A stretch of DNA of 53,095 nucleotides from a virus. The notes under the pieces are model-generated. The model saw nothing but the letters and a program-made list of their open reading frames with translations. It did no database searches and was not told where the DNA came from. The translations under genes were made by a program, and so were the position numbers. The DNA lies in the IMG/VR virus record IMGVR_UViG_3300027608_000043, positions 1 to 53,095 of that record; one strand, given 5' to 3'. Below are positions 4,708 to 34,461 of the stretch, one piece after another (position 1 is the first letter of the stretch; every line of letters starts with the position of its first letter).

Positions 4708-5874
4708 TCAAAGAACGCCGTCATCGCTGACGAAGCTGTAAGCAGTGGTAACAAAGTCCTTGTTCAGGATTTCAAAACCAGCATACAGTTGCCAGATGAG
4801 AATGATAAAGCGGCTGAAGTCATCATTGTTGTTAATGAGAACTTGAGCATTAGGACCGCCTACACCAACGCCTACTGCTTGAGGACCAAAGAAGAAACCT
4901 TGGGCTACTTCCTGGGAAGTATAAGCAGGAGCGTCAGTAAAGCTAGCTGTAATATTCTTGGTTGGGAAGTTGGTAGATTCATAGAATTTAACACCTTCAA
5001 ACTGAACGCCAGTAGGCATTACAGGTTCACCGGCCAGGAAGTAACCTTGACCCGCTTGAGGACCTTGGTAGAAGCTAGCGTTATTAGGCATCATGGGATT
5101 GCCAGACATATACATGCCTTGGCCAGGATTACCTGAATAACGTGCGATTTCACGGAAGTCAGCATCACGACGCAAGTGCATCATGAAAGTAGGATCGCAA
5201 ATACAACGATACAAACCATCAGAGAAGGTAGGTACGTTGCGCTTACGGAGATCCTTAACTACATTCAAAAGGTCGGTAGATACGTGGAACTGTTGTGAGT
5301 TAGCTGTGTACTGAGCAGTGGTGTAAGAAATACGGCCACTGGAATCCTTAGCAGCGCCAGTTGGGAAATAGTAACCACCTTGTGATGTTGATGCTTCACC
5401 ATTAGCTTCTGCTTTGGCTAGTTCATCAATAAACACACGATCACGCCAACGGCGATAATCATCAAGAAGTGTAAGGGAGCCAATAGACTGGTGGAACATA
5501 TTCAGATTACCTGTGTCCAGCAACATGCGCTGAGCAGTAATCAGAGTTTCACGAGCAATCTTAAAGGTACTGGGCTGAGTAGGATCAGAAGGATCCGCAG
5601 GGCCAGTGTATTCCTTAAGCACCACAAGGACTTTCTCCTTAGTGATGTTACGGCTGTTAGCAGTACCAATGGTTTGATCGGAGATACGTTCGCGGCTATC
5701 CTTAGTACCAGGAGTGCCCCAGAATTTGTAGCGGTCAAGTTGAACGGTTTGGCCAGGCTGACGAGTAAAGTCATGAACCACTACTGGTTCTACGGCCATC
5801 TCGCAGATGTAAGCAGGGTGAGGACGGTAAAGTTCTGCACCTAAGATTTTTGGAAAATCGGTATCAATAAACAC
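4708..5874 (-). CDS. Major capsid protein
   Basis: This 388-residue protein is most likely the main shell subunit. Support: its size, its position after portal and probable scaffold, and capsid-like content. The N-terminus MFIDTDFPKILGAELYRPHP precedes a long mixed beta/alpha core with the hydrophobic GFFFGPQAVGVGVGG and a C-terminal FIILIWQLYAGFEILN strand/helix. The start is GTG with a strong AGGAGG 10 nt upstream. It has its own 95-nt leader, suggesting high separate expression. I assign it by context and general resemblance to HK97-fold capsids rather than by a diagnostic motif. Confidence 0.8.
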   Translation of the reverse strand: MFIDTDFPKILGAELYRPHPAYICEMAVEPVVVHDFTRQPGQTVQLDRYKFWGTPGTKDSRERISDQTIGTANSRNITKEKVLVVLKEYTGPADPSDPTQPSTFKIARETLITAQRMLLDTGNLNMFHQSIGSLTLLDDYRRWRDRVFIDELAKAEANGEASTSQGGYYFPTGAAKDSSGRISYTTAQYTANSQQFHVSTDLLNVVKDLRKRNVPTFSDGLYRCICDPTFMMHLRRDADFREIARYSGNPGQGMYMSGNPMMPNNASFYQGPQAGQGYFLAGEPVMPTGVQFEGVKFYESTNFPTKNITASFTDAPAYTSQEVAQGFFFGPQAVGVGVGGPNAQVLINNNDDFSRFIILIWQLYAGFEILNKDFVTTAYSFVSDDGVL

Positions 5875-24879: not shown

Positions 24880-25179
24880 GTGGTAGATCACCAGGTGTCC
24901 TTGGCATCCACACTTCAGTGGTATAAGTCCAAGCTACTGGAGAACACCGTGATCAACACCACCGCTAGCGCCAACGTTACTGAGTTGGAGCTGACTGACA
25001 TTACTGAAATGTCATCGGCTGCAATGCAGGAAATGTTTGACGCGTCTCGACGGAAGTGTGGCGATAACGTAATGAGTAAGGTCCTTGACCTACTCGAGTA
25101 CGGACGTAGCCAAACACTTACTGCCGAACATCTCCAGGTCATCAAGTCCTACGTGGATGAGATGCTGGAGAACAACTGA
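24880..25179 (+). CDS. Hypothetical early helical protein (99 aa)
   Basis: The frame has no ATG near its start; GTG at 24880 gives MVDHQVSLASTLQWYKSKLL. The protein is amphipathic and acidic (ANVTELELTDITEMSSAAMQ; VIKSYVDEMLENN). The last codons and TGA also form the 5' strand of the first helix of the downstream RNA element. Short inverted repeats overlap the N-terminal codons, so the exact start is uncertain; a GTG at 24895 is an alternative. Function unknown. Confidence 0.5.
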   Translation: MVDHQVSLASTLQWYKSKLLENTVINTTASANVTELELTDITEMSSAAMQEMFDASRRKCGDNVMSKVLDLLEYGRSQTLTAEHLQVIKSYVDEMLENN

Positions 25180-25253
25180 ACTGTAGTACTCCACTTGTTG
25201 GAGGGCCAGGTGCAACTCCTGGCTTCAGTTATTACCCACAGCGGAGATGGGTA
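25174..25253 (+). ncRNA. Three-way-junction RNA element, copy A
   Basis: Helix P1 is AACTGA (25174-25179, including the stop codon) with TCAGTT (25225-25230). P2 is CTCCA (25189-25193) with TGGAG (25199-25203). P3 is GCCAGG (25205-25210), loop TGCAACT, CCTGGC (25218-25223). P4 is TACCCA (25233-25238) with TGGGTA (25248-25253), whose loop contains GGAG. Copy B differs in P2 and P4 on both strands, so pairing is kept. It lies just upstream of the 103-aa gene. Confidence 0.75.
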
Positions 25254-25273
25254 CCGCACACATGGAGTTATCC

Positions 25274-25585: not shown

Positions 25586-25661
25586 GCTGTAGTACTGCAG
25601 CAATGCAGGGCCAGGTGCAACTCCTGGCTTCAGTCATTGCCCAGTCCGCAGGAGATGGGCA
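25581..25661 (+). ncRNA. Three-way-junction RNA element, copy B
   Basis: P1 is ACTGA (25581-25585, including the stop codon) with TCAGT (25630-25634). P2 is CTGCA-GCAA-TGCAG (25595-25608), a GNRA tetraloop. P3 is GCCAGG-TGCAACT-CCTGGC (25610-25628), identical to copy A. P4 is TGCCCA (25638-25643) with TGGGCA (25656-25661). GTAGTACT before P2 is identical in both copies. It lies upstream of the 62-aa membrane protein gene. Confidence 0.75.
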
Positions 25662-25683
25662 CCTGCACAACATCAACTCGATT

Positions 25684-25896: not shown

Positions 25897-26100
25897 ATGA
25901 AATCTGACTCATTGCTAACTCCCGTACTTGCCGTTGTCATGGGCACCGGCCTTGGCATGCTGCTTTCAGTAGCTGGCCAGAAGGTGCTCAATGCACACAC
26001 CCTAGAGAACTGTTGGCGTACACCTAATCGCCAACTTGTCCACCTTCGCTTGTTCCAAGGTGATGCATGGTACTGCGTAGACAAACGCTACCTTAACTAA
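25897..26100 (+). CDS. Small membrane protein with Cys pair (67 aa)
   Basis: An N-terminal membrane segment (LLTPVLAVVMGTGLGMLLSV, residues 6-25) is followed by LNAHTLENCWRTPNRQLVHL and GDAWYCVDKRYLN, giving two cysteines about 20 residues apart. The layout parallels the preceding 62-aa protein. The cysteine pair would suit a periplasmic disulfide if the C-terminus faces outward. The stop codon lies 2 nt before the hammerhead ribozyme. Function unknown. Confidence 0.65.
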   Translation: MKSDSLLTPVLAVVMGTGLGMLLSVAGQKVLNAHTLENCWRTPNRQLVHLRLFQGDAWYCVDKRYLN

Positions 26101-26102
26101 CA

Positions 26103-26175
26103 GGACGAAACTAGGTTATAACATCATAACGATGCTGTAACCTGGTCGGCAGTTAATTACTGCCCTGATGAGTCC
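26103..26175 (+). ncRNA. Type II hammerhead self-cleaving ribozyme
   Basis: All core elements are present in circularly permuted (open helix II) order. These are GGAC (26103-26106), GAAA (26107-26110), helix III, the GTC cleavage triplet (26145-26147), helix I, CTGATGA (26165-26171) and GTCC (26172-26175). Helix III pairs 26111-26125 with 26131-26145 (two G-T pairs, one A-C mismatch, loop ATAAC). Helix I is GGCAGT (26148-26153) with ACTGCC (26159-26164). Helix II is GGAC with GTCC, 4 bp. A15.1-U16.1 is A26110-T26146. Predicted cleavage falls between C26147 and G26148, between two small membrane-protein genes. It would leave the downstream mRNA with a 5' hairpin. Confidence 0.88.
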
Positions 26176-26203
26176 ACATCAGAAACCCCATCGCATTATT
26201 ACC

Positions 26204-26416
26204 ATGAAGAACAATCACAAGATCTGCGGCAGGTACGTGGAACTAGACACGTATCGTCGCAGTAAAGATACTAGACAGTTAAAGCTAACCATATTAAATA
26301 TCATTACATTTATCGGAGCCGCTGCTGTGATGGCTATTGTCATAACAGCAGGGTTAGGCTCTGATATAACCACACCCTTGACTCCAACACAACATGAACA
26401 ACTCAAGAGAAGATGA
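26204..26416 (+). CDS. Small membrane protein (70 aa)
   Basis: I start at ATG 26204 (MKNNHKICGRYVELDTYRRS) because the earlier ATG at 26168 lies inside the CTGATGA core of the ribozyme. A basic N-terminus is followed by one span (LNIITFIGAAAVMAIVITAG) and a short polar tail (TPLTPTQHEQLKRR). It would be translated from the 3' product of ribozyme cleavage. The next frame starts 23 nt before its stop. Function unknown. Confidence 0.6.
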   Translation: MKNNHKICGRYVELDTYRRSKDTRQLKLTILNIITFIGAAAVMAIVITAGLGSDITTPLTPTQHEQLKRR

Positions 26417-26853: not shown

Positions 26854-26887
26854 CCTGGGCACCCATCACCATGGGGTAAGTCCCAGG
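26854..26887 (+). ncRNA. CCTGGG/GTAAGY hairpin, copy 1
   Basis: The outer helix CCTGGG (26854-26859) pairs with CCCAGG (26882-26887). The inner helix CCCAT (26862-26866) pairs with ATGGG (26871-26875). CA on the 5' side and GTAAGT on the 3' side form an asymmetric internal loop kept in all three copies. It lies 32 nt before the 126-aa gene. Confidence 0.65.
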
Positions 26888-26919
26888 TATCCAACCAACC
26901 TTACTTTATTTTCAACATC

Positions 26920-27482: not shown

Positions 27483-27514
27483 CTGGGCACCCATCACCAT
27501 GGGGTAAGCCCCAG
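27483..27514 (+). ncRNA. CCTGGG/GTAAGY hairpin, copy 2
   Basis: CTGGG (27483-27487) pairs with CCCAG (27510-27514). The inner CCCAT (27490-27494) pairs with ATGGG (27499-27503). The internal loop CA and GGTAAGC is conserved. It lies 31 nt before the 99-aa gene. Confidence 0.65.
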
Positions 27515-27545
27515 TTATTTAATCAAACCTTAACCTCCACCTAAC

Positions 27546-33681: not shown

Positions 33682-34461
33682 ATGTCACTGCTTAAGTTTT
33701 CCCACGGTAATGCTAAACTTGCTAACCGTTTGATCTTTAATCTACCAGCGGGTTATGCTTGTCCTTCCGCTGGTGTATGTAGAACATTTGCTGATCGCCA
33801 CACAGGTAAGATCAATGACAGTCTTGCAATACCTAATGCAGGAGTAGCTGACTATCGCTGCTTTGCTTCTATGGCAGAGACACGTCCTAATGTTAGAGAT
33901 GCTAGATGGTATAACTGGGATCTACTAAAGGATGCCATGTATACAGATGATGAAGGTGCAGAAGGAATGGCTGATCTAATCATCAGTTCCTTAGCACCAC
34001 ATGAAGAAGATCTTGTAAGGATCCATGAGTCAGGTGACTTCTGGACAGAGCTATACCTAATGGCCTGGATTACGGTAGCTAGAAAGGAACCTAACCGTAC
34101 CTTCTATGCTTTTACTAAGTCACTTAATATGTGGCTTAACCTAGCCAGTGAGATACCTAACAATCTATTCTTGACTGCTTCCATAGGAGGCCAGTTAGAT
34201 TCATTGATACCAGGTAGAGAATCTACTTTCATCCGCCGTGCATACGTTGTATATACAGAGGAGGAAGCGTCTACACGTGGCCTAGAGATAGACCATGATG
34301 ATAGTCATTGCTTTGGCGATAAACCATTCGCATTATTAGTACATGGTTCCCAAAGGGCAGGGTCAGCTGCCAGTAAAGCAATCAGCCTACGTAAGAAAAC
34401 TGGAGGCTTCACTGGGTATAACATAAACAGACGCAAAGCTAAAGAGATTGTTAAGGTATAG
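33682..34461 (+). CDS. GP88-family phage protein (259 aa)
   Basis: The N-terminus fits the phage gene product 88 family: FSHGNAKLANRLIFNLPAGY, then ACPSAGVCRTFADRHTG with the family's spaced cysteines. Later parts include LVRIHESGDFWTELYLMAWI, TFYAFTKSLNMWLNLASEIP and SIGGQLDSL. The family is known from mycobacteriophages and others; its biochemical role is unknown, and conserved cysteines and aromatic residues suggest metal or cluster binding. It is followed by the structured leader of the polymerase gene. Confidence 0.7.
   Translation: MSLLKFSHGNAKLANRLIFNLPAGYACPSAGVCRTFADRHTGKINDSLAIPNAGVADYRCFASMAETRPNVRDARWYNWDLLKDAMYTDDEGAEGMADLIISSLAPHEEDLVRIHESGDFWTELYLMAWITVARKEPNRTFYAFTKSLNMWLNLASEIPNNLFLTASIGGQLDSLIPGRESTFIRRAYVVYTEEEASTRGLEIDHDDSHCFGDKPFALLVHGSQRAGSAASKAISLRKKTGGFTGYNINRRKAKEIVKV

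Follow-up and report, generated by a model that had tools for sequence, protein, structure and literature searches.

The DNA analyzed here, called the window in the following, is the whole stretch of 53,095 nucleotides of a 53-kb IMG/VR virus record. Its source is a cyanophage related to Synechococcus phage S-EIV1 (KJ410740), which was the closest named relative found and has neighboring genes in common with the window at about 71% identity. The locus studied belongs to a plus-strand cluster of small genes and separates two genes encoding proteins of 67 and 70 amino acids (Table 1). A PHROG search with these two flanking genes gave no matches. The stop codon of the upstream gene ends 2 nt 5′ of a putative ribozyme and the downstream gene starts 28 nt 3′ of its stem II, in agreement with an earlier sequence-only reading that had placed the element exactly between two small membrane-protein genes. 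The same reading had proposed that an ATG within the ribozyme core is not used and that translation starts at 26204. This assignment held: the MKN start at 26204 is kept in the relatives, and since in the related contig L005 translation from the in-core ATG (26168) would soon meet a stop codon, 26204 is regarded as the true start.

Architecture and conservation of the hammerhead motif

On the plus strand, positions 26103–26175 read GGAC-GAAA-C, followed by stem III, GGTC (26144–26147), the predicted cut, GGCAGT-TAATT-ACTGCC, CTGATGA (26165–26171) and GTCC (ending at 26175). All core bases fit a hammerhead (C3U4G5A6U7G8A9, G12A13A14, A15.1–U16.1 and H17 = C), with A26110–T26146 representing the A15.1–U16.1 pair and C26147 representing H17. 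Three helices surround the core: stem II of 4 bp (4/4 pairs), stem III of 15 bp with standard pairs at 15 of 16 positions (two G–U pairs and one A·C mismatch), and stem I of 6 bp (6/6 pairs). Stems I and III are closed by loops and stem II is open, as is characteristic of the type II permutation. The complete core, the three helices in the open-helix-II permutation, the near-perfect 15-bp helix III and the perfect 6-bp helix I had all been described in the sequence-only reading and were confirmed by sequence and pairing. As core, helices, covariation and gene context agree, the assignment of 26103–26175 as a complete type II hammerhead motif in the gap between the two co-directional genes is supported, as far as sequence data can carry it.

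Table 1. Features of the hammerhead locus in the window.
Feature	Position	Strand	Basis or remark
Upstream gene, 67 aa, one hydrophobic segment	25897–26100	+	Relatives L002–L005
Stem II, 5′ strand GGAC	26103–26106	+	Sequence, pairing
Core G12 A13 A14 and A15.1 (GAAA)	26107–26110	+	Sequence, pairing
Stem III, 5′ strand, from A15.1	26110–26125	+	Pairing; covariation in relatives
Stem III, 3′ strand, ends in U16.1	26131–26146	+	Pairing; covariation in relatives
Predicted cleavage site C26147 (H17)/G26148	26147–26148	+	Deduced from hammerhead core, no biochemical data
Stem I hairpin, 6 bp, loop UAAUU	26148–26164	+	Pairing, predicted fold
Core CUGAUGA (C3–A9)	26165–26171	+	Sequence
Stem II, 3′ strand GUCC	26172–26175	+	Sequence, pairing
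Anti-core element CAUCAG, complement of CUGAUG 26165–26170	26177–26182	+	Sequence, class survey, folds
Downstream gene, 70 aa, one hydrophobic segment	26204–26416	+	Start 28 nt 3′ of stem II; leader unstructured

The permutation, the core and the short stem II are the same as in the type II hammerheads (RF02276) presented by Perreault et al. (2011; PMC3088659). The window differs from the usual type II by its long 15-bp stem III, the lack of a loop I–3′ tail pseudoknot, and a tail complementary to the core. According to the same study, the pseudoknot is present in the majority of type II hammerheads and is common, not obligatory. In the window, the tail sequence contains no complement of loop I (UAAUU). 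Because the pseudoknot is absent and stem II has only 4 bp, the speed of cleavage at physiological Mg2+ is uncertain; the concern of the earlier reading that such a short helix II may need tertiary contacts therefore stands.

A mechanical type II descriptor gave a score of 22 for the motif, compared to a best score of 11 when the complete window was shuffled 100 times. When our own descriptors for types I, II and III were applied to the window, 26103–26175 was the sole match, and the ribozyme did not match as type I or type III. The z-score for RNA folding of the ribozyme was −5.6. An Rfam search of the window gave no match at the gathering threshold on the ribozyme. The best score within the hammerhead clan, 19.9 bits, belonged to an alignment with the type III model whose register was wrong, and RF02276 (gathering threshold 37 bits) did not match at this place, so that the confirmation by the Rfam type II model suggested in the sequence-only reading was not obtained. 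Since hundreds of phage sequences share the architecture (see below), the missed detection looks like a limit of the models and not of the motif.

Two further candidate readings were rejected. RF02276 scored 15.4 bits at 33970–34042 on the minus strand, but the core arrangement is absent there and our descriptors ignored the locus. A type III reading of the ribozyme using the downstream GAAACC would leave stem II without pairs.

Within this phage group, the ribozyme is known from only three contigs, i.e., the window and the related IMG/VR contigs L002 (3300028581_000193) and L005 (3300032298_000540), in which it is located directly 5′ of the same small gene. A hammerhead was absent from the homologous place in L003, L004 and S-EIV1. 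Differences between the three copies are confined to stem III and its loop, and the flanks drift. Stem III shows compensatory changes, with G–C replaced by A–T on both sides and T·G by C–G and T–A, and one A·C mismatch is replaced by A–T. Stem II, stem I, the core and the tail up to CAGAAA are identical. In L002, an extra gene separates the ribozyme from the upstream gene, indicating that the ribozyme goes with the downstream gene.

Type II hammerheads in phage gene clusters

Pattern scans of viral contigs, followed by a pairing filter and removal of near copies, yielded at least 330 type II hammerheads. The scans were biased toward a GAC/GTC stem II, and clustering was based on the ribozyme sequence and not on phage phylogeny. 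Among the 330 matches listed, the median position was 2 nt after the stop of the upstream ORF and 21 nt before the next start, and 234 were followed by a Shine-Dalgarno sequence and ATG, compared to about 26 in shuffled leaders. Judged by these distances, the window copy (2 nt after the stop, 28 nt before the start) is typical of the class. Since phage hammerheads directly follow one stop codon and precede the next ribosome site, each copy would provide the next gene with its own 5′ end.

Twelve type II hammerheads were found in L152, one before nearly every gene, eight within 3.3 kb in L241, and at least five in an array of the culturable Streptomyces phage Salutena (MT708548). Type II hammerheads have been reported in bacteria and in phage or prophage DNA, often with several copies flanking single genes, and closely spaced copies on both sides of single prophage genes are described in the same report (PMC3088659). 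A lasting link of hammerheads with phage genomes has also been noted (PMC6155905). In view of the reported prophage arrays and phage association, the phage type II hammerhead is a known kind of element. Both the ardA prophage array of A. tumefaciens (PMC3088659) and the Salutena array resemble the window in that the ribozymes are located in gene gaps shortly before a start; the window differs from them in having a single copy, a cyanophage genome and an anti-core tail.

As a separate observation, 5 to 12 copies per few kilobases, located before nearly every gene of the cluster, were present in L152, L241, L254, L231, L081 and L379 (Salutena). Another recurrent tail following stem II, approximately AGnnnGACTTG, was observed in L079, L082, L083, L099, L116, L123 and others and has no obvious partner in loop I or the core.

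A tail complementary to the ribozyme core

Directly 3′ of stem II, the window has the sequence AC-ATCAG; in the RNA, CAUCAG of this stretch pairs with CUGAUG of the core. The alternative hairpin formed in this way (26165–26182) excludes both the active core and stem II, and pairing of the tail would dismantle the active fold. Whereas the sequence-only reading was right in describing a complete ribozyme, it had missed this element.

A tail complementary to C3–N7 was present in 35 of the 330 listed hammerheads at offsets of 0–3 from stem II, whereas 36 offsets beyond this range gave three anti-core tails in all. Core position 7 tracks the tail, with U7 occurring together with AUCAG and C7 together with GUCAG. 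In a scan open to all four base combinations, for which the listing was complete, the N7–tail pairs counted after 85% clustering were 19 UA, 1 UG, 0 CA and 7 CG (P = 9e-6); other offsets added 4 UA, 1 CA and 6 CG. The known hammerhead fold places no constraint on position 7, and the link between N7 and the tail is therefore not explained by the ribozyme itself. Both pair types were found among copies within single phages (L231 and L241), in L241 with near-identical leaders. The 85% clustering and the switch of pair type between copies of one phage reduce the possibility that this apparent covariation is an artefact of phage relatedness, but since the counts lack a phage tree, such an artefact is not fully excluded.

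The anti-core tail is not essential to the function of the class, as about 89% of the listed phage type II hammerheads do without it. A loop I–tail pseudoknot of at least four pairs was found in none of the 35 anti-core members, compared to 48 of the 295 other hammerheads listed. None of three named isolates checked contained an anti-core copy, and the Salutena copies among those listed have no anti-core tail. An anti-core hairpin is not mentioned in the accessible passages of PMC3088659, and the literature searched did not include most subscription journals and bioRxiv preprints; within these limits, an anti-core tail covarying with the core was not found described. From the time of their discovery onward, the role of bacterial and phage hammerheads has been an open question (PMC3088659; PMC6155905). 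With a core-covarying tail in about a tenth of the listed phage hammerheads, a definite refolding is predicted and the question of function becomes testable.

Predicted refolding and its possible role

For the uncut window RNA, energies of −31.7 kcal/mol for the active fold and −34.3 kcal/mol for the anti-core fold were calculated from secondary structure, ignoring tertiary contacts. This slight preference for the anti-core fold before cleavage would slow cutting. In the 3′ product, the anti-core hairpin adds −7.0 kcal/mol, compared to −3.8 kcal/mol for stem II as a free 4-bp duplex of two molecules. The 3′ product of the window is predicted to fold into two abutting hairpins starting from its first nucleotide (26148–26164 and 26165–26182; frequency 0.86), followed by an unpaired stretch up to the AUG at 26204. 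In the predicted 3′ products of the 35 anti-core members, the hairpin had a median pair probability of 0.99, and the core was mostly paired in 35 of 35, compared to 7 of 35 with shuffled tails.

The motif, its conservation and gene context, the covariation of core and tail and the predicted folds are observed, and on this basis we favor, with moderate confidence, a model in which the hammerhead cuts the polycistronic mRNA in cis and the tail then latches the downstream product. The cleavage itself is inferred, as is its timing: the mRNA would be cut at C26147/G26148 during synthesis. The upstream message would then end shortly past its stop codon in the 15-bp hairpin with a 2′,3′-cyclic phosphate, and the downstream message would begin with a 5′-OH on G26148. 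In an order of refolding that is likewise inferred, the tail CAUCAG would pair with CUGAUG of the core, which is no longer needed at this stage. The downstream message would then begin with the two abutting hairpins, followed by a leader without pairing and the start codon at 26204. This pairing would take the stem II strand out of reach of the 5′ product, preventing re-ligation and making cleavage irreversible. It would also separate the two halves, both messages gaining structured ends and the 5′-OH end being shielded; effects on mRNA stability and translation are inferences as well. In bacterial RNA turnover, a 5′-OH end within a terminal stem resists 5′-dependent decay. A one-way latch is favored by the product energies and the paired core in 35 of 35 products.

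The glmS ribozyme-riboswitch is a known case of an mRNA that cleaves itself within its 5′ leader and thereby acquires a 5′-OH end. Cleavage in the 5′ leader is the feature that the window is predicted to share with glmS, which differs in its unrelated fold and its need for a cofactor. We know of no anti-core hairpin in glmS.

The evidence for a latch acting after cleavage does not exclude the main rival, i.e., that the anti-core hairpin is an off-switch acting before cleavage in response to a signal such as upstream translation, a protein, temperature or Mg2+, like a natural aptazyme or expression platform. This might be the case, although we consider it unlikely. The hairpin takes up six nucleotides of the core and cannot coexist with the active fold, the two uncut folds are less than 3 kcal/mol apart in secondary-structure energy, and as the upstream stop codon ends only 2 nt 5′ of stem II, this stem would be covered by a terminating ribosome. 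However, no aptamer-like conserved domain adjoins the motif, no covarying sensor was found, and copies with and without anti-core tail alternate in one array. The wider proposal that bistable anti-core hairpins truly regulate the natural self-cleavage of phage type II hammerheads, in response to translation or to a signal of the infection stage, and that hammerheads regulated in this way punctuate phage operons, is equally tentative.

It is rather improbable that the ribozyme cuts and the tail hairpin is merely a 5′ mRNA structure, serving as stabilizer or protein site, which reuses the core letters by chance. Two adjoining hairpins would shield a 5′ end regardless of the ribozyme, and other structured elements are present in other gaps of related phages, but an independent hairpin need neither pair with the core in unrelated phages nor track position 7.

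We consider it very unlikely that the motif is a relic or a chance hammerhead without present function. Its score below the Rfam threshold, its restriction to three contigs and its absence at this place in S-EIV1, L003 and L004 would fit such a view, whereas the perfect core, the repaired and compensated pairs of stem III and a context as in hundreds of other copies do not. A relevance of the antisense strand as a relative of the cyanobacterial RNA Yfr20 can practically be dismissed: the RF02367 score on the minus strand (22.7 bits, E = 0.034, window 26086–26165) is only half the gathering score (44 bits), both genes are on the plus strand, no Yfr20 was found at E ≤ 0.001 in the window's own record, and the Prochlorococcus Yfr20 loci, whose other strand lacks CTGANGA and the GTC/A15.1–U16.1 features, speak against it, leaving what we judge to be a chance resemblance of two hairpins.

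Apart from the hammerhead, two other RNA elements recur in S-EIV1-like phages, in different gaps of the gene cluster that contains the ribozyme, and Rfam gave no match at their places (for the hairpin, none at E ≤ 1). As a lead and not a result, this phage group may have several leader elements that can replace each other, with the hammerhead among them. The first is a hairpin with covarying stems and the invariant pattern GGCA...CA...TG...TAAGTCC, located on the plus strand of the window at 26857–26888, 24902–24935 and 27485–27516, in L001 at 5472–5508, and in many S-EIV1-like loci. With its covariance model, 50 copies were found at E ≤ 0.05. They come from 45 S-EIV1-like sources and are always on the gene strand; 14 loci of other phages gave no copy. 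The second is an H-type pseudoknot, RCCY-N-GCGG-AGAT-RGGY-A-CCGC-AC, located shortly before genes on the plus strand of the window (about 25227–25263 and 25636–25670), in L001 near 3211, in L005 near 2971, and in many S-EIV1-like loci. The stem 1 partner was present upstream in 32 of 44 sequences with stem 2, compared to 11 (maximum 19) after swapping halves between sequences, and 43 of the 44 were on the gene strand.
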